Assembly: GCF_028288225.1 (NCBI RefSeq)
Contig: NZ_JAQBOC010000003.1
Location: forward strand, 124,001-188,000
DNA length: 64,000 nt
Direction: 5' to 3'
Source of the DNA: Mucilaginibacter sp.
GTDB lineage: Bacteria > Bacteroidota > Bacteroidia > Sphingobacteriales > Sphingobacteriaceae
The translations under genes and the position numbers were made by a program. This document shows, one piece after another, positions 13,679 through 61,142 of the stretch. How positions within the stretch are numbered: position 1 is the first letter of the stretch; each line of letters opens with the position of its first letter. The notes under the pieces were generated by a model. That model worked only from the letters and a program-made list of their open reading frames with translations. It did not search any database and was not told the origin of the DNA.

Positions 13679-13780
13679 AGTCCGAAAGTCGGTAAAGTCC
13701 GGAAGTCCGAAAGATGATTTTTCGCAGATAGCTTAAATATTCTATCTTTCGGACTTTACCGACTTCCGGTCTTTCGGACT
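13679..13780. repeat. Reiterated-word palindrome P1 (murA-GT39 spacer)
   Basis: Two 37-base arms (13679-13715 and 13744-13780) enclose a 28-base loop. The outer AGTCCGAAAG and inner AGTCCGAAAGAT pair perfectly. The middle of the arms holds the same words (CGGTAAAGTCCG, CCGGAAGT) in a different order, so pairing breaks there. The element nearly fills the spacer downstream of the murA stop. Confidence 0.9.
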
Positions 13781-13783
13781 TCC

Positions 13784-15091
13784 TCAGATCCTCTGAATAT
13801 TTGCTCCCAAAGCTATCAGGCGTTTATCAATATGCTGATAGCCGCGTTCTATTTGCTCAATATTATAAATTGTTGATTTACCTTGTGCTGATAATGCTGC
13901 AATAAGCAGGGACACTCCGGCACGTATATCCGGCGAAGTCATGGAGATGCCGCGCAACTGTACCTGTTTATCAAGACCGATAACTGTAGCACGGTGCGGA
14001 TCGCATAATATTATTTGTGCACCCATGTCCAGCAGTTTATCTACAAAGAACAGGCGGCTTTCAAACATTTTTTGGTGGATCAGCACTGAGCCTTTAGCCT
14101 GAATGGCCACTACAAGGCAAATACTCAATAAATCGGGGGTAAAACCTGGCCATGGTGAATCTGCAATCGTCATTATAGAACCATCGATAAATGTCTCTAT
14201 TTCATAGTGCTTTTGAGCCGGGATATAAATATCATCGCCCCTAAGTTCAAGCTTGATGCCTAATCTCCTGAACACATCCGGGATCATGCCTAACTCCTGG
14301 TAACATACATCTTTAATGGTTATCTCCGATTCTGTCATTGCTGCCAGCCCGATAAATGAACCTATTTCAATCATATCAGGTAATAAACGATGTTCGGTTC
14401 CGCCAAGCTCAATAACACCTTCAATTGTAAGTAAATTGGAACCTATGCCGCTGATTTTTGCGCCCATGCGATTAAGCATTTTGCACAATTGCTGTAAATA
14501 TGGTTCGCAGGCTGCGTTATATATTGTTGTAACACCTTTTGCAAGAACAGCTGCCATTACAATATTAGCCGTTCCCGTTACCGATGCTTCGTCAAGCAAT
14601 ATGTAAGTGCCTTTTAAATTAGAGGCATCTACATTAAAAAAACCATTGGAAGGATCATAATCAAACCGCGCACCGAGTTTTTCAAAGCCAAGGAAGTGGG
14701 TATCAAGGCGCCTGCGACCAATTTTATCGCCACCTGGTTTAGGTATTGAAGCCTTGCCAAAACGGGCCAAAAGCGGACCTACGATCATAATTGAACCGCG
14801 AAGGCCACCTCCTTTTTCTTTAAAAGCATCCGACAGGAAAAAATCCAGGTCAATGTTTTTTGCTTCAAAGCTATAGGTATCGGGTGCCAGTTGTTCAACA
14901 ATCACCCCCATATCACCAAGTAATTCTATCAGTTTATTAACATCTTTAATATCCGGAATATTGCTGATAGTTATTTTTTGGCTTGTTAAAAGTACAGCCG
15001 AAAGAATTTGTAATGCCTCATTCTTTGCTCCCTGTGGTGTTATTTCGCCTTTTAATGGTGTGCCGCCGATTATTTCAAATGCGTTAGTCAT
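13784..15091 (-). CDS. murA: UDP-N-acetylglucosamine 1-carboxyvinyltransferase MurA, Asp-type active site
   Basis: This 435-residue cytoplasmic enzyme transfers enolpyruvate from PEP to UDP-GlcNAc, the first committed step of peptidoglycan synthesis. The EPSP-synthase fold is complete: the N-terminus has IIGGTPLKGEI and GAKNEAL, and the C-terminus DIRAGVSLLIAAL and ERGYQHID. In the active-site loop PGGDKIGRRRLDTH the position normally held by the fosfomycin-reactive cysteine (C115 in E. coli) is aspartate D122. Enzymes with Asp here are known to be active and intrinsically fosfomycin-resistant. Word-palindromes lie on both sides of the gene. Confidence 0.96.
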   Translation of the reverse strand: MTNAFEIIGGTPLKGEITPQGAKNEALQILSAVLLTSQKITISNIPDIKDVNKLIELLGDMGVIVEQLAPDTYSFEAKNIDLDFFLSDAFKEKGGGLRGSIMIVGPLLARFGKASIPKPGGDKIGRRRLDTHFLGFEKLGARFDYDPSNGFFNVDASNLKGTYILLDEASVTGTANIVMAAVLAKGVTTIYNAACEPYLQQLCKMLNRMGAKISGIGSNLLTIEGVIELGGTEHRLLPDMIEIGSFIGLAAMTESEITIKDVCYQELGMIPDVFRRLGIKLELRGDDIYIPAQKHYEIETFIDGSIMTIADSPWPGFTPDLLSICLVVAIQAKGSVLIHQKMFESRLFFVDKLLDMGAQIILCDPHRATVIGLDKQVQLRGISMTSPDIRAGVSLLIAALSAQGKSTIYNIEQIERGYQHIDKRLIALGANIQRI

Positions 15092-15094
15092 AGT

Positions 15095-15196
15095 AGTTCA
15101 TGGTTATGGGTTCATAGTTCATGGTTAGCTGCAATAATGGAATCATTAATTGTTGTTTAATTCCATGAACTATCAACAATGAACCATGAACTAACC
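15095..15196. repeat. Reiterated-word palindrome P2 (upstream of murA)
   Basis: The left half repeats AGTTCATGG, GTTCATAG and GTTCATGG; the right half repeats CCATGAAC and its variants. A further pairing TGGAAT / ATTCCA sits inside. It fills almost the whole 109-base spacer between the DUF4290 gene and murA, so it would be in the murA leader. Confidence 0.9.
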
Positions 15197-15200
15197 CCAA

Positions 15201-15899
15201 TTAGTACTTTTTAGGGCCGTTGTTACGGTTGCGGTTTTGATTATTGTTATTACGCGGATTGTTGTTGGTACGGCCGCGATTATTTTGATTGTTATTGGTA
15301 CGTCCGCGGTTACTGCTGCTGCTGCTGCTATGTGGGTTTGCACGGTATTCAACCCTGTTTAGGTTAATATTTTCTTCCAGCTTTAATTCGCCGCCTGATA
15401 ATTTATAAAGATCATTTAATATACTTTCGTCCGTAACCGAATCTTTGTTCCATTGTACATAAGCCATCTTCATAAAATTGGCAACAGCCTGAACCATGTG
15501 CCGTTTACGATCGGGATCATCAATGCTTTTGGCTTTTTCAATCATTAGCTCAATGGTTTTACCATAGTGCTTGTATTTTATACGCTGATGCGGATATTTT
15601 AATGGCTCGGGCTTTAAATGAATAGCCTCCGGCGACGGTTTGGGATATGGTGAATCCACATCGATCTGGAAATCAGAGATAATGTGCAGGTGATCCCATA
15701 GTTTGTGTTTAAAATCGGCAACATCGCGCAAGTGGGGGTTTAAAAAACCCATCAGGTCAATTACAACCTGTGCATAGCGGTTACGTTCTTCTTTAGTAGG
15801 CAGCGCAACAATATATTTTACCATATTTTGCACGTTGCGGCCATATTCAGACAGGATTAACTTATTCCTGGTTGAGTTATAATCAAATTGTTCGGGCAT
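15201..15899 (-). CDS. DUF4290 domain-containing protein
   Basis: The 232-residue protein matches the Bacteroidota-specific DUF4290 family, of unknown function, over about residues 1-180 (for example YNSTRNKLILSEYGRNVQNMV and the DVADFKHKLWDHL region). The last 45 residues are low-complexity Asn/Arg/Gly sequence with repeated RGRTNNN-type units, resembling nucleic-acid-binding tails. There is no signal peptide, so it is presumably cytoplasmic. It lies upstream of murA and downstream of the M20 peptidase gene on the same strand, separated from each by word-palindromes. Conserved synteny with murA would suggest an envelope or RNA role, but that is speculation. Confidence 0.88.
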   Translation of the reverse strand: MPEQFDYNSTRNKLILSEYGRNVQNMVKYIVALPTKEERNRYAQVVIDLMGFLNPHLRDVADFKHKLWDHLHIISDFQIDVDSPYPKPSPEAIHLKPEPLKYPHQRIKYKHYGKTIELMIEKAKSIDDPDRKRHMVQAVANFMKMAYVQWNKDSVTDESILNDLYKLSGGELKLEENINLNRVEYRANPHSSSSSSNRGRTNNNQNNRGRTNNNPRNNNNQNRNRNNGPKKY

Positions 15900-16060
15900 G
15901 ATTTATTAAGCCAAGTAATTAATTTTTTATGAAGATCTTTAAATTAGCACAGACATATTCCCCGGATAGAACAGGAACATGAGGCTAAAGTTGAATTTTT
16001 ACTATAATGTAGAAACGCAAATATAATGCAATTGTGTGGATTTGCAAATATTTGTTTCAA

Positions 16061-16226
16061 AGATCAGAAACTGGAGGATCAGAGATCAGTAATGCGAAAG
16101 TCGAAATGCCAATTGCGGAATAGATTGGCTTAAATACCTTGACGAGTAGCATAAGTTAACTGATCTGTAACCTATGTTCTCTAATCTTTATTACCAACTA
16201 ATCTCTGGCCTCTAATCTCTGATCAC
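16061..16226. repeat. Reiterated-word palindrome P3 (M20-DUF4290 spacer)
   Basis: The left part repeats GATCAG words (AGATCAGAAACTGG, GGATCAGAGATCAG). The right part, 16158-16226, holds CTGATCTG, TAATCTTT, TAATCTCTGG and TAATCTCTGATCAC. This looser palindrome occupies the second half of the 323-base gap 15900-16222; the first half is plain AT-rich DNA in which I saw nothing else. The right arm runs into the peptidase stop codon. Confidence 0.75.
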
Positions 16227-17599
16227 TGCCCCGCACTCAATTCCGCAAAATATTTATGGAAAAGCGGGATAGTCTCAATGCCTTTATAGTAATTATAAAT
16301 ATCATATTTTTCGTTGGGTGAGTGGAGCGCATCGCTATCCAGCCCAAAGCCCATTAGCACAGTTTTAAGCCCGAGCTCTGCCTCAAATAGTGCAACAATA
16401 GGGATACTACCGCCGCCTCGGGTTGGGATCGGGTCTTTTCCAAACGATTCTTTTATTGCTTTTTGTGCCGCTTTGTAGGCTATACTGTCAGTTGGTGTTA
16501 CAACCGGCTCGCCGCCATGGTGCGGGGTAACCTTAACTTTTACAGATCGCGGAGCTATTTTTTCAAAATGGGTAGTAAATAATTGTGTTATCTCGTCAGA
16601 AACCTGGTTTGGTACCAATCTCATAGAAATTTTTGCAAAGGCCTTTGAAGGCAGTACAGTTTTAGCGCCTTCACCAATATAACCACCCCAAATACCATTT
16701 ACTTCAAGGGTAGGGCGGGTGCCGGTACGCTCAAGTGTGCTAAATCCCGTTTCTCCCCACAGCTCATCAACTTCAAGGTCTTTTTTATACTCATCCTCGT
16801 CGTATGGCGCATCATTTAATGCTTTACGCTCGGCATTAGTTAATTCAATTACCTTATCATAAAAGCCCGGAATGGTAATATGGTTGTTTTCATCATGCAA
16901 TGAGGCAATCATTTTAGCCAATGTAGTTGCAGGATTTGCTACAGCGCCGCCATAAACACCTGAATGAAGATCACGGTTCGGACCTGTTACTTCAACTTCA
17001 AGGTATGATAAGCCGCGTAAGCCTGTCTCCAGCGATGGGTTTTCCATGCTGATCATCGAAGTATCTGAAATTAATACAACATCGGCCTTTAGCCTGTTTT
17101 TATTTTGCTTTACAAATATGCCAAGGTTTGATGATCCTACTTCCTCTTCGCCCTCAATCATAAATTTGATATTGCAGGGTAAGGTATTGGTTTGCATCAT
17201 TAATTCAAACGCTTTTACGTGCATATAAAATTGGCCTTTATCATCACAAGCGCCGCGGGCATAGATCTTACCATCGCGAATTGTAGGTTCAAAAGGAGGG
17301 GTTTTCCAAAGCTCAAGCGGGTCTGGTGGCTGTACATCATAGTGACCGTATACCAGTACCGTAGGTTTTGATGAATCGATTGTTTTTTCACCGTATATAA
17401 TAGGGTAACCTGCAGTTTGGCAAACTTCAACATTGTCTGCTCCTGAATCCCGCAGTTTATCAGCTACAAACTCAGCTGTTTTTAATACTTCGGTTTTATA
17501 TTTGGGATCGGCACTAACGGAAGGAAAACGAAGAAGGGCAAACAGCTCGCTCAATAAACGTTCTTTGTGCTGTTCAACATAGTCTTTTATAAGCTGCAT
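16223..17599 (-). CDS. M20 family dipeptidase
   Basis: This protein of about 458 residues is a zinc metallopeptidase of the M20 (ArgE/DapE/CNDP) family that cleaves small peptides in the cytoplasm. Motifs are YGHYDVQP (metal-binding His and catalytic Asp), ARGACDDKG (bridging Asp), IEGEEEVGS (catalytic Glu pair) and a late conserved DALHSPNE with the final metal-ligand His. I chose the ATG at 17599, because the in-frame TTG nine bases earlier is less likely. There is no signal peptide. It heads a minus-strand run M20-DUF4290-murA-GT39 broken up by word-palindromes. Confidence 0.92.
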   Translation of the reverse strand: MQLIKDYVEQHKERLLSELFALLRFPSVSADPKYKTEVLKTAEFVADKLRDSGADNVEVCQTAGYPIIYGEKTIDSSKPTVLVYGHYDVQPPDPLELWKTPPFEPTIRDGKIYARGACDDKGQFYMHVKAFELMMQTNTLPCNIKFMIEGEEEVGSSNLGIFVKQNKNRLKADVVLISDTSMISMENPSLETGLRGLSYLEVEVTGPNRDLHSGVYGGAVANPATTLAKMIASLHDENNHITIPGFYDKVIELTNAERKALNDAPYDEDEYKKDLEVDELWGETGFSTLERTGTRPTLEVNGIWGGYIGEGAKTVLPSKAFAKISMRLVPNQVSDEITQLFTTHFEKIAPRSVKVKVTPHHGGEPVVTPTDSIAYKAAQKAIKESFGKDPIPTRGGGSIPIVALFEAELGLKTVLMGFGLDSDALHSPNEKYDIYNYYKGIETIPLFHKYFAELSAGQ

Positions 17600-17742
17600 A
17601 ATTATCAATTTGAAGCAAATATAGGGTTTGTTAAACGAGAAAAAATAAGGAAAGCTATAAGTTTAAAATTAGCTGATCTTAATAATTATGGAGGGTTTTA
17701 AAAAAGCTATATAAAGTATATTTAACAATATTCCCAAATGGG

Positions 17743-17762
17743 ACCGCTAATAAATTAGCGGT
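17743..17762. repeat. Perfect short stem-loop in the M20 / repeat-protein spacer
   Basis: ACCGCTAA-TAAA-TTAGCGGT is an 8-bp perfect stem with a 4-base loop and no adjacent T run. It lies in the 306-base gap between the repeat-protein gene and the peptidase gene. It could be an operator or an RNA hairpin; no function is shown. The rest of the gap is AT-rich without a gene. Confidence 0.45.
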
Positions 17763-17853
17763 AAAGGAAAAAACAATATAAATGATTCACCTGGGGGAAT
17801 TGCTGAACCAATCTGCTCGAATAAACAGGGAAAGGGATTGTAAAATAAATTCG

Positions 17854-17888
17854 CATACTCAGCTGAAAACTTTGCTCAGCTGAATATG
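17854..17888 (-). terminator. Hairpin after the 11-residue-repeat protein gene
   Basis: CATACTCAGCTG (17854-17865) pairs with CAGCTGAATATG (17877-17888), 11 of 12 bases. It sits 17 bases beyond the stop of the minus-strand repeat-protein gene and is followed in that direction by a T-rich stretch, so it may terminate that transcript. Confidence 0.5.
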
Positions 17889-17905
17889 TGAATTACTAAT
17901 AATAA

Positions 17906-18415
17906 TTACAGTGTGTTATCAGCAAAGTCACCAGTGCCTACAGTTCTCTTGTCATTCAAGTCACCAGTGCCTACAGTTCTCTTGTCATTCAAGTCGCCAG
18001 TGCCCACAGTTCTCTTGTCATTCAAGTCACCAGTGCCTACAGTTCTTTTGTCATTCAAGTCGCCAGTGCCTACAGTTCTTTTGTCATTCAAGTCACCTGT
18101 GCCTACAGTTCTCTTGTCATACAAGTCACCTGTGCCTACAGTTCTTTTGTCATTCAAGTCACCAGTGCCTACAGTTCTCTTGTCATTCAAGTCACCTGTG
18201 CCTACAGTTCTTTTGTCATTCAAGTCGCCAGTGCCAACAGTTCTTTTGTCATTCAAGTCGCCAGTGCCTACAGTTCTTTTGTCATTCAAGTCACCTGTGC
18301 CTACAGTTCTCTTGTCAGCCAAAGATGTTATTGAATTACCGTTTATAGTTTGGGCGGAACTTGAGAGCGCTACCGAACTTAAAACGATCACTGTGCAAAA
18401 TAGTAATTTTTTCAT
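17906..18415 (-). CDS. Secreted protein of twelve 11-residue tandem repeats
   Basis: The 169-residue product has a clear Sec signal peptide (MKKLLFCTVIVLSSVALSSSAQ), a 12-residue linker, then twelve nearly identical units of consensus NDKRTVGTGDL, ending FADNTL. One unit has Tyr and the first has Ala in place of the leading Asn. At DNA level the unit is 33 bp; differences between units are almost all synonymous third-position changes, so the peptide, not only the DNA, is under constraint. It has no cysteine or membrane anchor beyond the signal. Regular Asp/Gly/Thr turns would suit a repetitive beta structure. I do not recognise the family. Divergent from the TPR sensor gene. Confidence 0.85.
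   Translation of the reverse strand: MKKLLFCTVIVLSSVALSSSAQTINGNSITSLADKRTVGTGDLNDKRTVGTGDLNDKRTVGTGDLNDKRTVGTGDLNDKRTVGTGDLNDKRTVGTGDLYDKRTVGTGDLNDKRTVGTGDLNDKRTVGTGDLNDKRTVGTGDLNDKRTVGTGDLNDKRTVGTGDFADNTL
17933..18317. repeat. 12 x 33-bp coding minisatellite
   Basis: Twelve tandem 33-bp units lie in frame inside the repeat-protein gene. Variant positions (AGT/TGT, TCA/TCG, CTC/CTT on the plus strand) recur in non-adjacent units, the pattern left by unequal exchange or slippage. Copy number may vary between strains. Confidence 0.92.
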
Positions 18416-18975: not shown

Positions 18976-20400
18976 ATGAAAAAATACTTCATACTTATAT
19001 TGTTTTCCTTAGTTGCAATTTGTGCTTTAACAAATGGTTACGGCCAGGACACCAGCATGGTTATAAAACTAAATAAACTTGGTTTTGATAACCGTATGAA
19101 CAATCCTGACCAAACCGTTGCCAATGCTGCTAAAGCAATGGTTATTGCACAAAGGCTGAACTATAAAGAAGGTATCGGAGAGTCGTACAGGGTAAAAGGG
19201 ATTGGTTATTATTATTTAAACCAAAAAATAAAAGCAATTGACAATTTTTTAAATGCCATTGATTGCTTCCAAAAGCTTAATGATTTGCGGAGTGTGGGGA
19301 AGGTAAATAATAATATTGGGAATTTATACATCGATAATGATTATGACTTATCATTAGAGTATTTTCAAAAGGCACTTGTAATTGCTCAAAAGTTATCTGA
19401 TAAAAAACTGATTGCTACCAGCTATTTGAATATTGGTAACGTTTATTACCGGAAAAATAAATTTAATCAGGCGTTAACTTATTATGATAGGAGTGACGTG
19501 CTTTATGGTGATTTAAAAGATACGGTGAACCAGATCCAGTGTTTGCAAAATAAAGGTGTTATGTATTTTAATCTTCACCAGTATGACCGGGCTGAAAGCT
19601 TATTATTACAAGCAAATAAAGCGGCAAAAAAAATGGATCTGATCGTAACTGTTGCAAGTATCGATCTTACTTTTGCTGATCTGTATATTTCTCAAAAAAA
19701 GTATGCTCAGGCAGAAAAAATAATTGATGAAGGAGTGGCATTTGCGAGGATGGTTAAAAACGATGTAATTGAATCAGATTTTAAATATACAAGCTACCAG
19801 ATGGAGCTAAGGCGCAAAAATTACGAAGCCGCATTGCATTACCTGCAGGATATCAGTAAAAATGACAGCGTTGTATATAAGAACAACTCATCAACACAAT
19901 TAAATGTAAAACTGGAGCAAATTAAGCAGCAGGCCCGTCAAAAAGAAAATGAATTTTTATTGGCGCGCCAGCAATATGATCGTGTAAAGTTTTGGGGAGT
20001 GGCAATAGTTGCGGGTTTACTTATGGTATTAGTAGGCTTGTTAGTTAGTAACGTAAAACGTAAAGCAAAAACTAATGACCAGCTTACAAATCTTAATGCC
20101 GAAGTTTCACGACAAAAAGATAACCTGGACAGGATAAATCATCACCTGGAAGAAATAATTGATGAAAGAACAAAGGATCTGCAGATAAAAAATAAAAAGC
20201 TTTCTGAGTACTCATCTTATCTTTCACACCAGATCCGCGGCCCTATTGCTACACTCAAAGGGTTAATGAACCTTGAAAAAGAAGGTTTGGTTGATCAGCA
20301 GGAGTGTATTAAAATGATGAACAAGTGTGTGGGGGAAATTGATAATAAAATAATTGAGATGAGCGACATGCTGCACGATCCTGTGAAGACTAGTCTATAG
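18976..20400 (+). CDS. TPR-repeat sensor protein with DHp (HisKA) domain but no ATPase domain
   Basis: This 474-residue protein has a signal peptide (cut near NGYGQ), about five to six tetratricopeptide repeats (residues 45-310, for example YFQKALVIAQKL and ALTYYDRSDVLY), a transmembrane helix at about 339-360, a coiled coil, and a terminal dimerisation/phosphotransfer helix pair. The H-box is LSHQIRGPIATLKGL with His418. Bacteroidota TPR sensor kinases usually continue with a HATPase_c domain of about 120 residues; here the frame stops 57 residues after the histidine. It may be a phosphotransfer partner or an inactive dimer. The stop codon lies inside the left arm of palindrome P4. Confidence 0.82.
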   Translation: MKKYFILILFSLVAICALTNGYGQDTSMVIKLNKLGFDNRMNNPDQTVANAAKAMVIAQRLNYKEGIGESYRVKGIGYYYLNQKIKAIDNFLNAIDCFQKLNDLRSVGKVNNNIGNLYIDNDYDLSLEYFQKALVIAQKLSDKKLIATSYLNIGNVYYRKNKFNQALTYYDRSDVLYGDLKDTVNQIQCLQNKGVMYFNLHQYDRAESLLLQANKAAKKMDLIVTVASIDLTFADLYISQKKYAQAEKIIDEGVAFARMVKNDVIESDFKYTSYQMELRRKNYEAALHYLQDISKNDSVVYKNNSSTQLNVKLEQIKQQARQKENEFLLARQQYDRVKFWGVAIVAGLLMVLVGLLVSNVKRKAKTNDQLTNLNAEVSRQKDNLDRINHHLEEIIDERTKDLQIKNKKLSEYSSYLSHQIRGPIATLKGLMNLEKEGLVDQQECIKMMNKCVGEIDNKIIEMSDMLHDPVKTSL

Positions 20401-20476: not shown

Positions 20477-20483
20477 TCCTCAC

Positions 20484-23838: not shown

Positions 23839-23872
23839 AATTTCGGAATTCGGATGTTCGATTTTGGATTTA
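23839..23872. repeat. Left arm of split palindrome P5
   Basis: This 34-bp segment (starting AATTTCGGAATTCGGATG) is complementary at 32 of 34 positions to 26055-26088, 2.2 kb away. It is in the leader of the helicase gene. The segment between the arms carries the accessory genes. See the partner entry. Confidence 0.85.
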
Positions 23873-23935
23873 TTAGACTAAAATTTATTGAAATTGTATT
23901 TACAAAATATTCTTTGATATTAAAAATTTATCTTT

Positions 23936-24181
23936 ATGATGTTCATTATTTGCCTGTGCCAGATTAATAAGCCTTTTGACTTTTTGCAGTACGAATTTGT
24001 AAACTATGGTAACGAGCTTGATCACCTTCGCAAATTAAAGGCGCCTGTAAAAAGTGAGCACATGGACGACGTGGTTAACCTGCGCCTGCAAGGCCTTACC
24101 CTGCGCGAAATAGCCGACAAGCTGGGCATAACCCTTGGCAAAGTAGACTGGCTTTTAAAGGCAGCCAATAAAAAGGGATAA
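23936..24181 (+). CDS. Small helix-turn-helix protein or fragment
   Basis: An 81-residue frame whose last 40 residues form a convincing helix-turn-helix: MDDVVNLRLQGLTLREIADK, then LGITLGKVDWLLKAANKK. It resembles resolvase-tail or sigma-region-4-like domains. The first 40 residues have no recognisable fold, and the start is uncertain, since an internal ATG before DDVV is possible. It is on the opposite strand to its neighbours and richer in GC than the accessory genes beside it. It could be a stand-alone regulator or the leftover end of a larger DNA-binding protein. Confidence 0.5.
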   Translation: MMFIICLCQINKPFDFLQYEFVNYGNELDHLRKLKAPVKSEHMDDVVNLRLQGLTLREIADKLGITLGKVDWLLKAANKKG

Positions 24182-24185
24182 GGTT

Positions 24186-24230
24186 TTGTTTGTTTGTTTA
24201 TCCGGGAGGGGGGCGCATACAAACAAACAA
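24186..24230. repeat. 12-bp perfect inverted repeat after the HTH frame
   Basis: TTGTTTGTTTGT (24186-24197) pairs with ACAAACAAACAA (24219-24230) around a G-rich loop. It starts four bases after the HTH stop. There is no T run, so terminator function is uncertain. Confidence 0.55.
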
Positions 24231-24306
24231 CTTTATGGATTTCCACGCCTTCCAACAAAACGCAAGGTTGTGGTGAGGCATTTGCTGTACTTAGCATGCT
24301 GCTGAT

Positions 24307-24843
24307 TTAATGTAAATTCTTGTAAATTACTGAATCTGGCAAACATTTCTTTTTTCCATAAAGCTCTGCTTGTTTTAAAACTTCTGTTTGAAATCTTTTT
24401 TCTACACGTTGGATTTCATTTTTCCCTAGCAAAGTTCTGTTATTAATTAAAGTATCTGCTAGCTTTTTGTTATAAATCGTTCCTATCCAACATGGTTCAG
24501 TAGTAAAGTTAATCATATACCATTCATCAGGTTCATTTTTGAAATGAATTATGCGTTCCTGGTCGTTTAAAATATTTCCTGATAAGAATATGTAATTCAC
24601 CGAATCCGGAACAATCAAATTTTTATTTAAGACGCTATCAATATACATTTTCAAAAAACTGCCGCTTATCCTACTTTCTTTAAAATCTATAAATAAATAA
24701 CTATAAGTTGTCATTTTATAACAACTTATTTGAATAAATAAACAAACAAGTAAAGCTATTTTCTTTTTATTAAACCAGCAGATTCCCTTTTTTTTGAATG
24801 GATTTTTACAAGTTGTAAAAATGTGGTGCAATGGTGTAATCAT
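24307..24843 (-). CDS. Hypothetical protein, possible lipoprotein (accessory)
   Basis: An AT-rich frame encodes about 178 residues from the ATG at 24843; it stays open to 24921, with another ATG at 24894, so the start is unsure. A basic-hydrophobic segment, NKKKIALLVCLFIQISC, looks like a lipoprotein signal with its cysteine. The rest is polar, with DSVNYIFLSGNI, WYMINFTTEPCWIG and a helical basic C-terminus. I do not recognise the family. Base composition and position next to an Imm11-like gene suggest an accessory or orphan immunity-type gene. The upstream edge overlaps a repeat shared with 25818-25845. Confidence 0.55.
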   Translation of the reverse strand: MITPLHHIFTTCKNPFKKKGICWFNKKKIALLVCLFIQISCYKMTTYSYLFIDFKESRISGSFLKMYIDSVLNKNLIVPDSVNYIFLSGNILNDQERIIHFKNEPDEWYMINFTTEPCWIGTIYNKKLADTLINNRTLLGKNEIQRVEKRFQTEVLKQAELYGKKKCLPDSVIYKNLH

Positions 24844-24888
24844 CTTTTGATAAATTATACTTATGAAGTTTTTTGTCTTCGCCTGGTC

Positions 24889-24915
24889 TTTCATAGAGGA
24901 CCCTGTGATGTATAG
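24889..24915. repeat. 27-bp direct repeat, copy 1
   Basis: TTCATAGAGGACCCTG plus GATGTATAGC, differing at one central base, recurs at 25820-25845 in the same orientation. Each copy lies just upstream (minus-strand sense) of one of the two accessory genes, a layout typical of cassettes added by recombination at a shared segment. Confidence 0.7.
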
Positions 24916-25067
24916 CGCCAATGGTGCATAATAACCCGCCGTCCAGTCAGACTTGCCCAGGCTGGTATTAATTTAAACGGCAAGCTCAATATATTTTAGG
25001 ACGAAGTTATAAACTTCGGCCAGTTAGGGGTTGGTGTTTCAGTACCCCTCGCCAGAATGCAAGGGTT

Positions 25068-25730
25068 TTAAATTTCAAATATATTTTGTATGGTTACGTC
25101 ATACCCTGTTATGTTATTCTCAATTAATTCATTTAACAGATTTTGCGAAACAAAAATATCATCATGAATTATTGAAAAAAAAAATAAATCAAGAGCTTTA
25201 AAAGTCTCATTAACTGATAGTTTTTCAGCGTAAATTATATGTCCTAATTCTAATTTTTTTTGTTTTTCGATCAAATCATGAGAAGAAAGTATGTTAATAT
25301 CATTTTCTTTCATTCGAAAAACGTTACCGATACAAAAAGAAGATTTGTTAAAATTTATTTCTGTAAAATCCATATTAACTAATTGCAAATAATAATAAGC
25401 CAGTGTCTGATCCTTTACAATAAGCGAGGCTTTATGAAATTTATGCTCAATTAAATTAAACCTTTCGAAAATCGCTTTAGCCTTTTCACTCATTAAAAAA
25501 CCCGTAGCTGTAATATTACCTGCACTAATTATATCAGTTAATATAGCATCATCTTTAAGCTCCCATATCAAATCCGGGACAAAATCAGGTAAAGAACTAT
25601 CTGTTAAATTTGTCATCGAATTGGGTTCATCGTACCATTTTGAAGTGTAACCTTCAGGCAATCCTGTAGTTTGATGATAACAACCTATTTCGTCTTCTTT
25701 TGTAGATACTGATAAAAAATAATACATCAT
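25068..25730 (-). CDS. Imm11-like (DUF1629) immunity-type protein
   Basis: The 220-residue, AT-rich, cytoplasmic protein has no signal peptide. Its layout resembles the Imm11/DUF1629 family found as immunity proteins next to polymorphic toxins: an N-terminal strand (MMYYFLSVS), PDFVPDLIWELKDDAILTDI, GNITATGFLMSEKAKAIFERF, then HKFHKASLIV and YYYLQLVNMDFTEINFNKSSF. No toxin gene is next to it, so it would be an orphan. Identity to the family is my pattern judgement without a search. The gene lies between two copies of a 27-bp direct repeat inside the P5-bounded patch. Confidence 0.6.
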   Translation of the reverse strand: MMYYFLSVSTKEDEIGCYHQTTGLPEGYTSKWYDEPNSMTNLTDSSLPDFVPDLIWELKDDAILTDIISAGNITATGFLMSEKAKAIFERFNLIEHKFHKASLIVKDQTLAYYYLQLVNMDFTEINFNKSSFCIGNVFRMKENDINILSSHDLIEKQKKLELGHIIYAEKLSVNETFKALDLFFFSIIHDDIFVSQNLLNELIENNITGYDVTIQNIFEI

Positions 25731-25819
25731 AATATGATAAATATAGTACCGCTGTTCAATTATTGTGACTTCGAACTAAAATTAATTATTAAAAGGAAAC
25801 TTTTTGTCCCCGCAAACTT

Positions 25820-25845
25820 CATAGAGGACCCTGCGATGTATAGCA
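25820..25845. repeat. 27-bp direct repeat, copy 2
   Basis: Second copy of the repeat at 24889-24915. On the minus strand both copies can be read as LYI(T/A)GSSMK followed by similar codons, so the repeat may be the leftover end of a coding sequence. The 361-base gap 25731-26091 holds this repeat, the M1 terminator and the right arm of P5, and no gene. Confidence 0.65.
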
Positions 25846-26006
25846 CATTCTGGCACGAGTATGACGGACCGCCTATGCGGAATGGCTACTGACCCCGGAT
25901 GTAAAGTAAAGCCTGTGCTGTTTAGCTAATTTATATTGGAGCCTCATTTACAGCTAAAACTACCGTATTGTTTGTTACTTAGCAATCAGCAAGACAAACA
26001 AATAAA

Positions 26007-26036
26007 AAAGACCCGCCTTTCTCAAAACGGGTCTTT
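26007..26036 (-). terminator. Rho-independent terminator of the M1 peptidase gene
   Basis: AAAGACCCG / CGGGTCTTT form a 9-bp GC-rich stem. Read on the minus strand it is followed by CTTTTTTATT, and it lies 56 bases past the peptidase stop. Confidence 0.85.
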
Positions 26037-26054
26037 CATTAAATATCAAGTTTA

Positions 26055-26088
26055 TAAATCCGAAATCGAACATCCGACTTCCGAAATT
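26055..26088. repeat. Right arm of split palindrome P5
   Basis: Complement of 23839-23872 with two mismatches in 34. It lies between the M1 peptidase stop codon and its terminator, so it would be part of that mRNA's 3' UTR. Confidence 0.85.
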
Positions 26089-26091
26089 ACC

Positions 26092-28213: not shown

Positions 28214-28423
28214 ATGGAATCTATTCTGATACATCCTGAAAATGCAGAACAATTGAAAACTGTTAAAGCGGTTTTAAAAGCTTTAAAAGTTCAATTCGAG
28301 CCTCAGTCTAATGTTTTACCCCCTCATGTTTTAAAAAGCATTGAAAAAGGTATTAAACAATATGAAGATGGGCAAACAATCTCTCTTCAGGAATTTACTG
28401 AAAAGCACTTTTCTAAAAAATGA
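28214..28423 (+). CDS. Antitoxin of a type II toxin-antitoxin pair (DUF2683-like)
   Basis: The 69-residue protein has the usual small-antitoxin layout: an N-terminal strand-helix (ILIHPENAEQLKTVKAVLKALKV) that probably dimerises and binds DNA, and a polar C-terminal part (IEKGIKQYEDGQTISLQEF) that would wrap the toxin. Its stop overlaps the next start in ATGA, the tight coupling typical of such pairs. It resembles DUF2683-type antitoxins. It presumably represses its own operon, whose promoter lies in the 157-base gap after the divergent M1 peptidase gene. Confidence 0.8.
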   Translation: MESILIHPENAEQLKTVKAVLKALKVQFEPQSNVLPPHVLKSIEKGIKQYEDGQTISLQEFTEKHFSKK

Positions 28424-28710
28424 ACTTTGAATTAAGGTTCACTACGGAAGCAGAAGAAACATTCGATGCACTGGTTATTCAATTGCAACAAAAATGGGGA
28501 GATCATTTTGTAGCCAAGTTTGAAACCAGAGTTTTAAAAGCGCTTAAAACAATAACAATTACACCATTCCTTTATCCTGTAGCCGAAGAAAATACTGGAA
28601 TCAGAAAATGTATTCTCCACAAAAACTGTTCGTTATTCTATAAAATAAACGAGGAAAATATAGTAATTATATGTTTTTGGGATAATCGCCAGGATCCAAT
28701 ATTTTCCTAA
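28420..28710 (+). CDS. RelE/ParE family toxin
   Basis: The 96-residue protein matches the RelE/ParE fold: FELRFTTEAEETFDAL at the N-terminus, a central helix with WGDHFVAKFETRVLKAL, ITPFLYPV, then GIRKCILHKNCSLFYKINEENIVIICFWDNRQDP, where the conserved Arg and the terminal DNRQDP of this subfamily are visible. It would act as an mRNA-cleaving or gyrase-blocking toxin; the two subfamilies cannot be separated by eye. The four-base overlap with the antitoxin gene supports cotranslation. Confidence 0.88.
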   Translation: MNFELRFTTEAEETFDALVIQLQQKWGDHFVAKFETRVLKALKTITITPFLYPVAEENTGIRKCILHKNCSLFYKINEENIVIICFWDNRQDPIFS

Positions 28711-31523: not shown

Positions 31524-31532
31524 TATTTAATT

Positions 31533-31572
31533 GCAAAATGCCCTGATCTGTCGGGGCATTTTTGCTTTTTTT
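31533..31572 (+). terminator. Rho-independent terminator of slyD
   Basis: GCAAAATGCCC pairs with GGGCATTTTTGC and is followed by TTTTTTT. It starts 10 bases after the slyD stop. Confidence 0.9.
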
Positions 31573-31592
31573 GATAAATATTATTGGCCTTT

Positions 31593-31689
31593 CGTAGAGA
31601 CGCGATGCTTCGCGTCTTAACCGAATGACGGTATCCGAAATGCAATTCTTTTATGCATGATTTTAGACGCGATGCATCGCGTCTCTACG
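31593..31689. repeat. REP-like palindrome doublet, copy B
   Basis: Same build as copy A (9229). The left hairpin is GACGCGA-TGCT-TCGCGTC; the right is GACGCGA-TGCA-TCGCGTC, with outer GTAGA / TCTAC ends. Stem bases differ from copy A but remain paired. It lies between the convergent slyD and lacI-type genes. Confidence 0.88.
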
Positions 31690-31712
31690 AACTTCTCATA
31701 AAATCATTTCTA

Positions 31713-38868: not shown

Positions 38869-38874
38869 ATTCTT

Positions 38875-38944
38875 GTAGAGACACAATACTTTGTGTCTCT
38901 GAATACTATTTTTACGCTGGAGACACAAAGTATTGTGTCTCTAC
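38875..38944. repeat. REP-like palindrome doublet, copy C
   Basis: Two hairpins of stem GACACAA / TTGTGTC in inverted orientation with outer GTAGA / TCTAC. Compared with copies A and B, G-C pairs are replaced by A-T pairs on both strands of the stem. It starts seven bases after the uxuA stop. Confidence 0.9.
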
Positions 38945-39105
38945 GATCCGGATAGGACGTTTCCTTCAAACGCTCCACTAACAGGATATCACATTTTTTT
39001 CAATATGCAGCTGGTGACTTCTATCCGGTTCACTTTGTTTTTGTTATCCGACTCGGGTTGCAGCTACCATGAACTATGATATATCAATCATAAACAAACA
39101 CCCAC

Positions 39106-56094: not shown

Positions 56095-56152
56095 TTGATA
56101 TATTACACCCTGTAAACCAATTATTAAACTATTATAACCTTAAATTATTAAA

Positions 56153-57364
56153 ATGCAATCCATTAACCGTACTCAACTGTTCAGGGCAAGCTGCTTGTCG
56201 CTGTTAGTTACCTCATTATCATTCGGTATTCGTGCCGGAATCCTTAACAAACTTGGTGTTGATTTTCAACTTGATAAAGCACAGCTGGCATCTATAACCG
56301 CTACAGCTTTTTATGGTTTTCCAATTGCCGTAGTGATTGGCGGATTTATAGTAGATCTGATAGGCATGAAAAGGTTGCTGGTAATGGCATTTATTTTTCA
56401 CCTTGCCGGTATCCTGCTCACTATATTCGCACAGGGATTCTGGACACTTTATATTTCAACCTTATTAATAGGGTTAGCAAACGGTACTGTGGAAGCGGCT
56501 TGTAACCCGTTGGTAACAACACTTTATCCTGATAGTAAAACAACAAAGCTCAGCCATTTCCATTTATGGTTTCCTGGCGGAATATTTATAGGCACTTTAA
56601 TAGTTATCTTCCTAAATAAATTAGGATTAGGCTGGCAAATTCAGGTAGGGTTAATGCTTATACCAACATTAATCTATGGTTACCTGTTTTCACGCCTTGA
56701 TTTTCCTGTTACTGAGCGTGTTGCTTCAGGGGTATCAACTGCTGGCATGTATAAGGCGCTCTGGAACCCATTATTCATATTTATGTTTATCTGCATGTTT
56801 GGAACAGCCATTACAGAATTATTTACTGGGCAATGGATAGATGTATTATTGAAAAAGGTAAACGATAATGCTTTGCTGCTATTAACCTTAGAAACCGGGG
56901 TAATGGTTGTTGGGCGGGGATTCGCCAAACCTGTACTTAAACGTTTTTCACCACAGGTGGTATTGCTGATATCTACAATACTTGGTGCTTTGGGCTTATT
57001 CTTATTTACAACTTTAACCGGGAATGCTGTATTTTTTGCTGCCATTATATTCGGAATGGGAGTATGTTTCTTTTGGCCAACCATGTTAGGTTTTGTTAAC
57101 GAAAATATACCTAAAACAGGCGCACTGGGTTTAAATCTTATGGGTGGAGCTGGAATGTTTGCTGTGTCACTATACACAATAGTTATGGGTAAATATTACG
57201 ACAACATTGTTAAAGCGGCAAACGGTGATAATACCACTGCCGGTATAAAGGTATTGCAAACAACGTTAGTGATCCCATTAGTGTTGATTGTAGCCTTTGC
57301 TGGCCTGGTAATTTATATGCGATCAAGAAATAAAACAGCACCGTTAAAAACAGCAGTAGTTTAG
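56153..57364 (+). CDS. MFS transporter, probable sugar permease
   Basis: The 403-residue inner-membrane protein has 12 predicted helices, with the MFS loop 2-3 region as GGFIVDLIGMKRLLVM and a basic/polar middle loop around residue 185. A C-terminal basic tail (MRSRNKTAPLK) is cytoplasmic. It is the first transporter in the cluster and lies between the cytoplasmic isomerase gene and the cytochrome gene, so it probably imports the oxidised or cleaved sugar. Substrate cannot be read from sequence; a FucP-like or keto-sugar porter is possible. Confidence 0.88.
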   Translation: MQSINRTQLFRASCLSLLVTSLSFGIRAGILNKLGVDFQLDKAQLASITATAFYGFPIAVVIGGFIVDLIGMKRLLVMAFIFHLAGILLTIFAQGFWTLYISTLLIGLANGTVEAACNPLVTTLYPDSKTTKLSHFHLWFPGGIFIGTLIVIFLNKLGLGWQIQVGLMLIPTLIYGYLFSRLDFPVTERVASGVSTAGMYKALWNPLFIFMFICMFGTAITELFTGQWIDVLLKKVNDNALLLLTLETGVMVVGRGFAKPVLKRFSPQVVLLISTILGALGLFLFTTLTGNAVFFAAIIFGMGVCFFWPTMLGFVNENIPKTGALGLNLMGGAGMFAVSLYTIVMGKYYDNIVKAANGDNTTAGIKVLQTTLVIPLVLIVAFAGLVIYMRSRNKTAPLKTAVV

Positions 57365-57429
57365 AAACAATAAAATAGTATAATTGTAATTTAATAAACC
57401 CCATTTTCTAACAAACAAATACGTCCACG

Positions 57430-57870
57430 ATGAAAAAAGTTTTTGCAATGCTGATTATATGTGCAGCTATAACCGCCTGCGGCGGAGGTTCAAAATCAGG
57501 TAGCGGCGCTGATAGCGCAACAACAACTACCGCTGATCAAACCGCCAAGACCAAGGAACCGAATGTAGATACCAATGCTAATAATACCGGTGCCAGTAAG
57601 GATGCAGGCGCGGCAGCTCCGGCAATAAAGCTTATTGCTGCATCTGATTGCGGTACATGCCATAAAGAGGATGTGAAAGTGGTAGGACCCGCTTTTAAAG
57701 ACATCGCAGCCAAGTATCCGCCTACGGATAAAAATATCAATACTTTAGCAGATAAAGTTATCAAAGGTGGTAAGGGTAACTGGGGCGATATCCCGATGAC
57801 TGCGCATGCCTCGCTTTCTGTTAATGATGCTAAAACAATAGTTAAATATATTTTGTCGCTCCATAAATAA
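57430..57870 (+). CDS. Lipoprotein c-type cytochrome
   Basis: The 146-residue protein has a lipoprotein signal (lipobox TACG, Cys at 17), a low-complexity Ser/Thr/Ala/Asn linker to about residue 60, and a class I cytochrome c domain. The haem motif CGTCH is at C74-C77-H78, followed by VGPAFKDIAAKYP, and the likely axial Met lies in IPMTAHASL. The fold resembles c551-type domains fused to or partnered with quinoprotein and GMC dehydrogenases. It probably takes electrons from the two periplasmic GMC enzymes and passes them to the respiratory chain. Confidence 0.92.
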   Translation: MKKVFAMLIICAAITACGGGSKSGSGADSATTTTADQTAKTKEPNVDTNANNTGASKDAGAAAPAIKLIAASDCGTCHKEDVKVVGPAFKDIAAKYPPTDKNINTLADKVIKGGKGNWGDIPMTAHASLSVNDAKTIVKYILSLHK

Positions 57871-57902
57871 ATATTTAAAACGCACCAGCTAAACTATAGA
57901 CC

Positions 57903-59162
57903 ATGACCTCCACTATCAGAGTCAAGCTTTCTACAATGATGTTCCTTGAGTTTTTTATCTGGGGAGCATGGTTTGTAACTTTAGGTACTTATCTACTCAC
58001 TTATCTTAAAACATCGGGGGTAGAGGTTGGAACCGCGTTTACCACGCAATCCATAGGCGCAATAGTTGCACCATTTATAATTGGGCTAATTGCCGATCGT
58101 TATTTTTCGGCGCAAAAAATATTAGGTGTTCTGCACTTGGCAGGTGGCGCGTTACTTTGGTGGGCGTCAACTTCAAAAGATTTTGGAGCATTTTATCCGG
58201 TGATCTTAATTTACATGATACTATATATGCCAACGTTGGCATTGGTGAATTCTATATCATTCAGACAAATGCAAAACCCAAGTAAAGAATTTGCACCTAT
58301 TCGGGTACTGGGCACCATTGGATGGATTGTAGCAGGCGCATTTGTAAGTTGGCTTAATTGGGATAAGCAGGGCAATGCGGCAGCACTAGTCAATACTTTT
58401 AAGATGGCCGGAATTGCTTCTATATTATTGGGTTTATTTAGTTTTACTCTTCCTAAAACTCCACCAGTTAAACAAGGGCAAAAATCTTCAATAGGCGATA
58501 TATTAGGCTTGGATGCGATCCGTTTACTAAAAAATCCCTCATATCTGGTATTCTTTTTGGCCTCAATTGCTATTTGTATACCACTAGCGTTTTATTATGG
58601 TTTTGCAAACCCGTTTTTTGGCGAAATTGGTATGAAGGCTACAACGGTAACACAATCATTGGGACAAGTTTCTGAAACATTGTTTATGATATTGATACCT
58701 TTCTTTTTTGTAAGGCTAGGTGTGAAAAAAATGCTGGCGATAGGTATGATAGCCTGGGCTTTACGATATATATTTTTTGCCTATGGAGATGCCGGCAACA
58801 ATTATTGGATGCTTATAGCAGGTATTTTATTACATGGGGTTTGCTATGATTTTTTCTTTGTAACCGGACAGATATATACAGATAACCTGGCTGGCGAACA
58901 ATTTAAAAGCGCCGCACAAGGATTTATCACATTAGCCACTTATGGCGTAGGTATGCTCATAGGTTCAATTATTGCTGGAAAAATTGCAGATAAATACAAG
59001 ATTTCTGAAACATCTCATAACTGGCAATCAATTTGGCTTATACCTGCAGGAATAGCTGTTGTGGTTTTAATATTATTTATTATATTCTTCACAGATAAAA
59101 ACCATATGGAAACAAAGCCCGGTTTGGATATAGAAGAGCCTTCACCACAAGTACAAATATAA
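57903..59162 (+). CDS. Nucleoside:H+ symporter-like MFS transporter (NHS family)
   Basis: The 419-residue inner-membrane protein has 12 helices and matches the NupG/XapB-like family: VKLSTMMFLEFFIWGAWFVTLGTYL at the N-terminus, IVAPFIIGLIADRYFSAQKILG, and a conserved DFFFVTGQIYTDN in the second half. NHS members import nucleosides, but Bacteroidota relatives often sit in sugar loci. It starts 32 bases after the cytochrome gene and 14 bases before a TIM-barrel gene, so it is part of the same transcript. Nucleoside or glycoside as cargo is open. Confidence 0.9.
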   Translation: MTSTIRVKLSTMMFLEFFIWGAWFVTLGTYLLTYLKTSGVEVGTAFTTQSIGAIVAPFIIGLIADRYFSAQKILGVLHLAGGALLWWASTSKDFGAFYPVILIYMILYMPTLALVNSISFRQMQNPSKEFAPIRVLGTIGWIVAGAFVSWLNWDKQGNAAALVNTFKMAGIASILLGLFSFTLPKTPPVKQGQKSSIGDILGLDAIRLLKNPSYLVFFLASIAICIPLAFYYGFANPFFGEIGMKATTVTQSLGQVSETLFMILIPFFFVRLGVKKMLAIGMIAWALRYIFFAYGDAGNNYWMLIAGILLHGVCYDFFFVTGQIYTDNLAGEQFKSAAQGFITLATYGVGMLIGSIIAGKIADKYKISETSHNWQSIWLIPAGIAVVVLILFIIFFTDKNHMETKPGLDIEEPSPQVQI

Positions 59163-59176
59163 ACTGAACCAATTAT

Positions 59177-60067
59177 ATGGCATTTAAACAAAACAGGAGA
59201 TCGGCAATAAAGAACATTGTTGCCGGAACCGCAGCTATCACGGCAACGGGTATGCTATCATCATTTAAAAAAGAGGAAATGCAGGAACAGGTATCTGACA
59301 AACTTAAAGGAAATATAAACCATTCAGTTTCGCCATGGTGCTATAGCGGTTATACTCTCGATCAGCTTTGTGTTATATCAAAAGAAATAGGCATAACCGG
59401 CGTTGATCTTTGCGGACCAAAAGACTGGCCTACACTCCAAAAGCATGGCATGTATTCGCCAATGTGCAATGGCGCCGAAATTAACTTAACCGATGGGTTT
59501 GGCGATACACAATTTCACGAAAGATTAATAAAACAATATACTGATATGATCCCGCTGGTAGCCAAAAATGGTTACACCAACTTAATATGTTTCAGCGGCA
59601 GCCGCAGGGGAAAGGATGATGAAACCGGCTGGAAAAATTGCGAAGAAGGCCTAAAGAAATTGCTCCCGCTTGCAGAAAAGCATAAGGTTGTATTATGTAT
59701 GGAATTGCTAAACAGCAAGATCGATCATAGAGACTATCAATGCAACAAGTCGTCGTGGGGCGCTGAGCTGGCTAAAAGATTAGGATCTGAAAATTTTAAA
59801 CTACTTTATGATATCTACCACATGCAGATTGATGAGGGAGATATTATCAGGAACATAACCGATCATCATCAATACATTGCTCATTATCATACCGGGGGGA
59901 TACCGGGCCGTCATGAGATTGACGATACACAAGAGCTTTATTACCCTGCTGTAATGAAAGCAATTGTCGCCACCGGCTTTAAAGGATATGTAGGGCAGGA
60001 GTTTGTTCCTAAACAGGCTGATAAGATAGGATCATTAAAAAAAGCGATCCTGATTTGCGATGTATAA
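59177..60067 (+). CDS. Hydroxypyruvate isomerase-like TIM barrel (3), Tat-leader
   Basis: The 296-residue protein begins KQNRRSAIKNIVAGTAAITA, a twin-arginine-type leader, and continues into a TIM barrel of the hydroxypyruvate isomerase/xylose isomerase-like group: GITGVDLCGPKDW, VVLCMELLNSKIDHRDYQ, KLLYDIYHMQIDEGDI, and YHTGGIPGRHEID. The last two segments are typical of the Hyi branch and supply metal ligands. It lies 14 bases after the NHS transporter gene. With the leader, it should act outside the cytoplasm, which is unusual for the Hyi branch. Confidence 0.88.
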   Translation: MAFKQNRRSAIKNIVAGTAAITATGMLSSFKKEEMQEQVSDKLKGNINHSVSPWCYSGYTLDQLCVISKEIGITGVDLCGPKDWPTLQKHGMYSPMCNGAEINLTDGFGDTQFHERLIKQYTDMIPLVAKNGYTNLICFSGSRRGKDDETGWKNCEEGLKKLLPLAEKHKVVLCMELLNSKIDHRDYQCNKSSWGAELAKRLGSENFKLLYDIYHMQIDEGDIIRNITDHHQYIAHYHTGGIPGRHEIDDTQELYYPAVMKAIVATGFKGYVGQEFVPKQADKIGSLKKAILICDV

Positions 60068-60120
60068 TTGGATATTAAACTAATTACAAAAAAAACACTC
60101 TATACTAAATAAAACTACCA

Positions 60121-60996
60121 ATGACTACGAGGAGAGAATTTTTAACACAGGCAGGGCTTATTTCAGCCGGCTTAATGATAGCGCCGGGGTTATTATCGGC
60201 AAAAGGAACAAATGTAGTGGGTTTGCAGCTTTATAGCTTACGGGACCAACTGCCAAAGGATGTAAAAGGCGTTATTGCTAAAGTAGCAGCTGCCGGTTAC
60301 AAAGAAGTGGAAACATTTGGCTATTCAAAGCAAAATGGTTTTTGGGGACTTGATGCCAAAGCTTTCAGCGGCTTGCTAAAAGCAAACGGGCTTACAACCC
60401 CAAGCGGGCATTTTGGGATGGATGAGTACTTTGTTCATGGTAAAACTACCGACCTGGAAAGCTATATTGAAGCTGCAAACGCTACAGGCATGAAATACGT
60501 AGTTGTGCCATCAATTAATGGCGAGGTATTAAAAAGCGCCGATCAGTTTAAACAGGTAGCTGAGAAGTTAAATAAAGCGGCAGAAATATGTAAAAAGTCA
60601 GGTTTGCAATTGGGCTATCACAACCACAACTTTGAGTGGAAACCAATTGACGGCACTACATTTTACGATACCATTTTAAAAGAAACCGATCCAAAGCTGG
60701 TTCATATGGAAATGGATATTTTTTGGGTAGTCCGTGCAGGACAGGATCCTGTTAAATTATTTCAGCAGCACCCGGGCAGGTTTGCGCTATGTCATATAAA
60801 AGACAGGGATAAAAAACAGACTGACCTTAACACCGAAATAGGTAAAGGCAGCATCGACTTTAAAACAATTTTGAGCCATGCTAAACTGGCGGGCTTAAAA
60901 CATTTTATTGTTGAGCAGGAAAACTATATAAATATCGACCCTTTTGTAAGCATCGCAGAAAGCGCAGCTTATGTGAAGAACACGTTACACGTGTAA
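60121..60996 (+). CDS. Exported sugar phosphate isomerase/epimerase-family TIM barrel (4)
   Basis: The 291-residue protein starts TTRREFLTQAGLISAGLMIAP, a twin-arginine leader, then a TIM barrel with VGLQLYSLRDQLPKD, LGYHNHNFEW, VHMEMDIFWVVRAGQDP, ALCHIKDRD and FIVEQENY. It resembles the protein at 46060, so the cluster has two exported copies of this type. It probably epimerises or tautomerises a keto sugar in the periplasm. It is followed by palindrome P9 and then the DUF1080 gene. Confidence 0.92.
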   Translation: MTTRREFLTQAGLISAGLMIAPGLLSAKGTNVVGLQLYSLRDQLPKDVKGVIAKVAAAGYKEVETFGYSKQNGFWGLDAKAFSGLLKANGLTTPSGHFGMDEYFVHGKTTDLESYIEAANATGMKYVVVPSINGEVLKSADQFKQVAEKLNKAAEICKKSGLQLGYHNHNFEWKPIDGTTFYDTILKETDPKLVHMEMDIFWVVRAGQDPVKLFQQHPGRFALCHIKDRDKKQTDLNTEIGKGSIDFKTILSHAKLAGLKHFIVEQENYINIDPFVSIAESAAYVKNTLHV

Positions 60997-61142
60997 GTAG
61001 TTAATTGGGTTGATTAAGTTGGATTGAGTTGATTAAGTTAGGAATGAAAGGTATATACTTATCGTTCGCTTAATCTCCATAGTTAAACTTAATCAACCTA
61101 ATCAACTCAATCCAACTTAATCAACTTCTACTTTAATTAACT
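60996..61142. repeat. Reiterated-word palindrome P9
   Basis: The clearest member of the class. A 27-bp perfect pairing joins 61009-61035 (starting GTTGATTAAGTTGGATTGAG) to 61099-61125, with further word copies on both sides, such as AGTAGTTAATT against AATTAACT at the far right. The right arm ends about six bases before the ATG at 61149. Confidence 0.93.

Follow-up and report, generated by a model that had tools for sequence, protein, structure and literature searches.

Why should the spacers between genes of a Mucilaginibacter sp. carry a short word that is repeated with small variations in one half and reappears as repeated reverse complements in the other? The question was raised by a 64,000-nucleotide stretch of contig NZ_JAQBOC010000003.1 (hereafter the window), in which ten sites, P1 to P10, eight of them of this design, had been marked in a reading of the sequence alone. 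The word arrays of these intergenic spacers lie far above chance, and at orthologous positions in related genomes one set of words can be replaced by another, usually in both arms. The explanation that we favour, with a probability of roughly 0.4, is that the paired arrays are exchangeable RNA stems at gene borders, which would separate neighbouring transcripts by processing or by protection of 3' ends.

Each site was compared with 500 dinucleotide shuffles of itself using 7-mers. At P1, P2, P6 and P9, none of the shuffles reached the observed coverage by either direct or reverse-complement words, and the numbers that did so (direct/reverse-complement) were 0/5 at P7, 4/9 at P3 and 11/0 at P4. 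The sequence-only reading, which had described words together with reverse-complement words at these seven sites, is thereby borne out, as is its remark that word order is shuffled between the arms. P8 and P10, said to contain direct words only, indeed have a reverse-complement coverage of 0, their direct coverage being attained by 0 and 5 of 500 shuffles, respectively. The predicted RNA folds of P1, P2, P3, P4, P6, P7 and P9, seven of the nine sites folded, are more stable than those of shuffles on both strands (z −3.4 to −9.5), and P8 (z +1.3, +2.2) and P10 (z −1.2, +0.4) fold no better than shuffles.

The signal extends well beyond the window. The genome is a 6.77-Mb draft in 96 contigs, of which about 0.80 Mb was sampled in addition to the window (0.86 Mb in all), and reuse of 8-mers within 250-base scanning windows was scored in spacers of at least 60 bases as direct and reverse-complement z values against dinucleotide shuffles; an earlier statistic, 7-mer coverage over spacers of up to 1200 bases, scarcely separated signal from shuffles and was abandoned. 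Both kinds of reuse reach z ≥ 2 in 48 of 446 spacers, compared with 0.12 in shuffles, and z ≥ 3 in 23 of 446, compared with 0.0. About one spacer in ten is thus touched, some of the 48 being, by eye, ordinary palindromes or terminators rather than word stems. Equal word reuse in shuffled spacers had been named beforehand as the outcome that would speak against a single shared design; the shuffles come nowhere near it, and the shared design holds.

Table 1. Word-array sites and an adjoining gene, in window coordinates.
Feature	Position	Words	Context
P1	13679..13783	AGTCNGNA arms at about 13679-13713 and 13746-13783	directly 3' of murA
murA (EPSP_synthase family)	13784-15091, minus strand		
P2	15092..15200	GTTNATR arms	occupies the whole spacer between a DUF4290 gene and murA
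P3	16055..16226	AGAGATC / CTCTAATC arms	
P4	20391..20478	GTCNATR arms	end of gene 18976-20400
P5, left (G) arm	about 23839..23872	TTTCGGATGTTCG words	
P5, right (C) arm	about 26055..26090	reverse-complement words	
P10	34353..34426	AATCGGTGT words, direct only	
P6	52800..52905	GTGAATTA arms	
P7	53531..53660	GATTTGAA arms	
P8	54852..55041	GGATGTGC/GATTTGAA words in the G array, followed by CCAATGAC words in the C array	arrays unmatched
P9	60997..61125	GTTGATTRR / GTTRGATTRR arms	

The words are not private to their loci, as had been supposed: those of P1, P2, P3, P4, P6, P7 and P9 recur elsewhere in the genome. Hairpins counted in the sampled genome and in regions of five relatives number 14 for GTTGATTRR/GTTRGATTRR, 9 for AGTCNGNA, 8 for GTTNATR and 5 for AGAGNNN. 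The P9 pattern GTTGATTRRGTTRGATTRRG is present in 97 copies in the genome itself and the P1 pattern AGTCCGAAAGTCNGNAAAGTCCG in 23, and among 149 genomes of the genus 78 contain the former and 55 the latter (own genome included in both tallies); read backwards as a control, neither pattern is found in any of the 149. A search of 100 genomes, the own one among them, finds a P2 pattern in 22, every one of them a member of the genus. In a set of 395 genomes from the phylum that takes in the own genus, 30 have three consecutive GTTSATR units, a count for which the backwards control fails in the case of pure GTTGATA arrays, since these read the same in both directions. The spread across the genus is patchy, with dozens of copies in some relatives and none in others. 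One relative assigned to the genus, G023, has a murA identical to that of M. frigoritolerans, which identifies the genus as Mucilaginibacter. Three other species (G020, G030 and G033) carry the P2 word in unbroken tandem form, as long pure GTTCATG arrays with as many as about 20 units. The claim that the sites are not copies of one mobile element stands: a single dispersed repeat family, named in advance as what would overturn it, was not found, and there are instead many unrelated vocabularies, each of them dispersed.

Periodicity exceeding that of 20 shuffles each was detected in 147 of 313 word segments, with about 15 expected by chance (about 1 in 21), the periods being 7 or 14 (55 segments), 8 (42), 9 (20), 15 (14), 10 (8) and others (8). 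The cleanest words combine a fixed core with free positions. Among 136 GTTNATR units lying between two intact GTTNAT units, the unit itself being unconditioned, places 1-3 are G (0.93), T (0.88) and T (0.94), place 4 varies (C 0.59, G 0.29, A 0.09), A (0.91) and T (0.95) follow, and the last place is G (0.49) or A (0.44). In AGTCNNN (n = 97), the AGTC is held at 0.75-0.86 and three places are free; some vocabularies, AAAGCNN among them, are much less clean. Runs of 2, 3, 4, 5 and 6 GTTNATN units number 33, 24, 32, 8 and 1, and a preference for four units, considered as a general rule, was rejected, being clear for GTTNATN only, with no peak at four in the other vocabularies counted; an array-wide peak at four is helped by the 24-base length cut-off. 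Plain slippage would leave all positions alike, so that the core must be under constraint, or else the generator must leave certain positions free. This argues against regarding the arrays as neutral or selfish sequences that grow by slippage, spread by ectopic gene conversion and are purged from harmful orientations near start and stop codons, the stems being a by-product; the patchy distribution across the genus, and the one-armed and unmatched spacers described below, are what such an account would lead one to expect, and we regard it as possible, if doubtful.

The placement of the arrays follows a strict polarity. With arrays detected from direct repeats alone, the G-rich array comes first wherever a spacer of this genome has a C-rich array as well (32 of 32), and likewise in all 43 such Mucilaginibacter spacers when regions of five relatives and 20 other species are added, a set that counts orthologs of several species more than once; shuffled spacers give 1.0 with both array kinds. 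The order is kept where the two arrays of a spacer differ in words. The ORF (open reading frame) caller is crude, P9 being labelled convergent since the gene at 61149 lost its place to an open-ended frame, but the G-first count does not depend on gene-orientation labels and is the same under a second, stricter caller. In own spacers with both arrays, the G arrays begin a median of 2 nucleotides from the left gene and the C arrays end a median of 11 nucleotides from the right gene. Tandem spacers have 58 G arrays on the left and 13 on the right, and 25 C arrays on the left and 52 on the right; relative to the genes, G words tend to lie past a stop codon and C words ahead of a start codon, and in convergent spacers the stop of either gene tends to be followed by G words (19 left, 1 right). 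Divergent spacers contribute only 1 of 41 matches, though they constitute 66 of 328 spacers of up to 250 bases. Spacer edges devoid of arrays are weakly skewed in the same direction (−0.17 to +0.21), in agreement with the neutral account. Outside the genus, the G-rich array is first in four spacers and the C-rich array in two, and the rule is not established there.

Stable predicted stems, close proximity to the left gene and scarcity between divergent genes are also expected of ordinary intrinsic terminators with unusual stems. That identification is nonetheless very unlikely: of 28 spacers, 3 have a T-run 3' of the C array, compared with a background of 200 of 714, and P6 to P9 lie inside a co-directional gene run in which a scan restricted to loops of 3-8 finds a canonical terminator-like site with a T-run after gene 61149-61913, at 61922-61968. 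The arms of this latter stem contain the word-like GTTAACGGTTCACAGTT. The G strand pointing inward at both borders, together with fixed cores and free positions, could alternatively reflect a dedicated, telomerase-like enzyme that carries its own template, or uses one supplied in trans, and writes words from each side at DNA ends within spacers. Such an enzyme seems quite improbable, given that the free positions of the heptamer vocabularies vary by substitution and not by length; the search for candidate enzymes covered Y1 transposases only. A promoter in the loop was also considered and rejected. The promoter-like consensus box TAnnTTTG has matches in 0 of 20 own tandem loops (0.76 expected) versus 34 of 182 tandem spacers without arrays (19.1 expected); by eye, a similar box is present in the loops of some P2 orthologs, for example at L132.

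How the two arms of a spacer are related bears directly on their origin. Of the 43 two-array spacers, 18 combine different vocabularies and 25 have one vocabulary in both arrays, against a mean of 5.1 and a maximum of 12 in 2000 permutations of the C arrays; the split is made by clustering, and in at least two of the 18 'different' spacers (L002:14464 and L016:5155) common words can be seen by eye, whereas a few contain weak arrays of low complexity, including the 'G array' of P3. Matching at this level is not anticipated by the neutral account. When arms were ranked against those of other loci with the same vocabulary (36 hairpins, 0.5 being random), own-arm pairing gave mean ranks of 0.50, 0.54, 0.45 and 0.65 in four vocabularies, whose patterns, like those of the ortholog tallies below, were picked after reading the sequences. 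Each arm looks as if it had been drawn independently from a shared pool, the match extending to the dialect and no further, and this resemblance to genome-wide draws is again compatible with neutral arrays. It had been proposed that template switching or slippage inside a local hairpin generates one arm from the other. Copying of this kind should make own arms pair best, which they do not, and a fold-back copy cannot place arrays of different words in one spacer in the G-first order, which unmatched arrays keep as well; a mild own-arm advantage in the orthologous P2 set (rank 0.38 over 30 species, the arms of others belonging partly to another vocabulary) is what remains in its favour. We therefore consider local hairpin copying largely refuted and its chances very slim.

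Comparison of orthologous spacers reveals both persistence and replacement of words. The window genome (G000) was compared with G045 (murA identity 87.6%), in which 29 of 38 spacers could be located, 12 of them with words in one or both genomes. The vocabulary is the same or overlapping at P1, P2, P4, P6, P8 and P9, as the sequence-only reading had thought worth checking, and is replaced at P3, from AGAGATC to AGTCCGAA words, and at P7, from GATTTGAA to GTTGATTRR words; these changes were read by eye, with no repeated 7-mers in common at P7 and, at P3, 2 in common out of 23 and 20. A 53-base spacer of G000 without words (60068-60120) has a counterpart in G045 with two different arrays, and between G111 and G153 (93.7%) one spacer differs, also by eye, mainly in its left arm. 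At P1, about 1 of 78 arm positions differs between G000 and G045 and the loop differs in both length and sequence; arms so much better conserved than the loop do not suit the neutral account. Across the genus, 33 loci were supplied, window included, and P1 could be defined in 27, of which 19 have matched arms in five vocabularies, one is unmatched, three are one-armed and four have none; of the 33 P2 spacers, 17 are matched, one unmatched, ten one-armed and five without arms.

The joint change of both arms at P3 and P7 would be readily explained if whole hairpins were mobile elements, similar to MITEs (miniature inverted-repeat transposable elements) or REPINs, inserting after stop codons and replacing one another. 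At L016 (5155-5284), a AGTCCGAA C array lies inside the loop of an AGAGATT hairpin, so that vocabularies are nested, an arrangement that such insertion would also produce. Nevertheless, loops are, by eye, not common to loci of one vocabulary, arrays of different words pair up within one spacer, only one arm has changed in G111/G153, and the genome contains only two remnant Y1 transposase frames. Mobility of entire hairpins thus appears improbable.

P5, which had been described as split, is indeed a G arm and a C arm with two ORFs in between. The arms flank a variable gene block (23839-26090 in the window) that has uvrD and peptidase M1 as its neighbours in G000, G045 and G153 alike: in the window it consists of two ORFs without Pfam matches, in G045 of about 11 kb with six other ORFs and in G153 of about 11 kb. 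The arms are degraded in G045 and are composed of other words in G153. Elsewhere in the window, 31524-31712 and 38869-39105 contain a different type of near-perfect palindrome, AGACGCGATGCTTCGCGTCT and AGAGACACAATACTTTGTGTCTC, in two copies each per spacer, with similar palindromes at L016 and L011. An ORF at 28420-28710 has a weak, above-cut-off match to the ParE toxin.

Under the interpretation that we favour, a G-rich array beside one gene and a C-rich array beside the other would pair into a long imperfect RNA stem, which likely separates the transcripts of neighbouring genes through processing or 3'-end protection, acting much as intercistronic stems would. Selection presumably keeps both arms in the same vocabulary rather than preserving a given sequence, and the arms may be copied between loci one at a time from the genome-wide pool of words, ectopic copying being the candidate route that we prefer. 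RNase III or another duplex-reading enzyme may act on the stem: a stem read by shape and not by sequence would fit exchangeable vocabularies, and RNase III is the natural candidate. In keeping with an intercistronic stem of the RNase III type, long duplexes are predicted at seven of the nine sites folded, and the genome has a gene for RNase III (one Ribonucleas_3_3 match in a 249-codon frame). Several observations weigh against this interpretation. P8 and other two-vocabulary spacers are unable to form a long stem, and P2 is one-armed in 10 and armless in 5 of the 33 spacers. Own arms pair no better than arms from other loci with the same words, the P2 orthologs with their mild advantage apart. 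A duplex-reading enzyme does not account for the G-first order, and matching arms could also result from insertion of whole hairpins.

It had been stated that no named family fits. No Rfam family is matched in the window at gathering score, but the claim is too strong, inasmuch as the GGGNATC repeats of Xanthomonas and Nostoc share both placement and polarity with the arrays described here and are the nearest known system. Rehm et al. (2015; PMC4692102) described GGGNATC and GGGGA(C/T)T heptamer repeats for which G-quadruplexes were proposed; they are under-represented between divergent ORFs, prefer four units and form 70 convergent pairs in one Xanthomonas genome and 75 in another. Common to both systems are an intergenic heptamer word with a free position, the G strand following stop codons or lying on the antisense strand ahead of ORFs, and a four-unit preference, seen here for GTTNATN only. 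A tandem intergenic heptamer with a free position is represented here by GTTNATR (n = 136) and AGTCNNN (n = 97), other vocabularies having periods of 8 to 10. The difference is that the published repeats are one quadruplex-forming word, whereas here there are many vocabularies, periods of 7 to 10 and replacement at orthologous sites. A motif of four G-tracts is found in 0 of 147 own-genome arrays, and hence G-quadruplex formation does not unite the class.

The TAACTGA repeats of Beggiatoaceae, Cyanobacteria and five Bacteroidetes, whose mechanism was not evident (MacGregor, 2015; PMC4679880), are likewise intergenic heptamer arrays near start codons in distant groups, but they are almost all direct (169 sets versus one inverted) and built of a single word, related heptamers being rare in that genome. 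REP sequences and REPINs with RAYT transposases (PMC3116915) are also intergenic, numerous and paired into hairpins; unlike them, the present arrays have no fixed palindrome, many vocabularies and tandem words in each arm. A single conserved palindromic unit of REPIN type was not found among these several unrelated vocabularies of shuffled order, and an engine of the REP/RAYT kind is unsupported, the 96-contig draft having yielded no intact RAYT (Y1 transposase) gene and only two partial Y1_Tnp frames, of 138 codons with an internal stop and of 112 codons. A minisatellite-bearing MITE of Porphyromonas gingivalis, also of the Bacteroidota, combines tandem units with inverted repeats, but appears to be a defined mobile element of one sequence (PMC4596501). 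By the tests made, the word stems are not members of the G-quadruplex, REPIN or intrinsic-terminator families. In the literature searched, which left out most subscription papers, we found no published description of such matching word stems, and a search for the words themselves returned, among the matches listed, only the 8-letter GTTCATGG, in unrelated fields.

Beyond the genome itself, 400 kb from 20 other Mucilaginibacter contain 184 spacers, of which 11 reach z ≥ 2 on both measures. The corresponding counts are 2 of 94 for loci of the Pedobacter/Sphingobacterium type, 7 of 191 for other Bacteroidota and 3 of 116 for loci from 20 further families, many of the positives in other taxa being, by eye, ordinary dispersed palindromes and not word arrays. 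A P2 pattern is matched by 20 stretches among 2.9 million viral contigs. It is conceivable, though we would not expect it, that there is a cross-phylum class of gene-border elements, consisting of arrays of a few words of 7-10 nucleotides with a fixed core and free positions and with the G-rich strand inward from both spacer ends, in which an active copying machinery exchanges entire vocabularies, one arm at a time, by drawing on a genome-wide pool; the quadruplex repeats of Xanthomonas and the TAACTGA repeats would then be single dialects of it.

The rule of placement and polarity, which in Xanthomonas and Nostoc is linked to G-quadruplexes, is separated from them here. The covariation at these gene borders is of an unusual kind, since it is whole vocabularies, rather than single base pairs, that change together, and this makes both the function and the copying route accessible to strain comparison and to the mapping of RNA ends. 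If the cross-phylum class exists, the property that both ends of a spacer speak the same dialect would covary as base pairs do.

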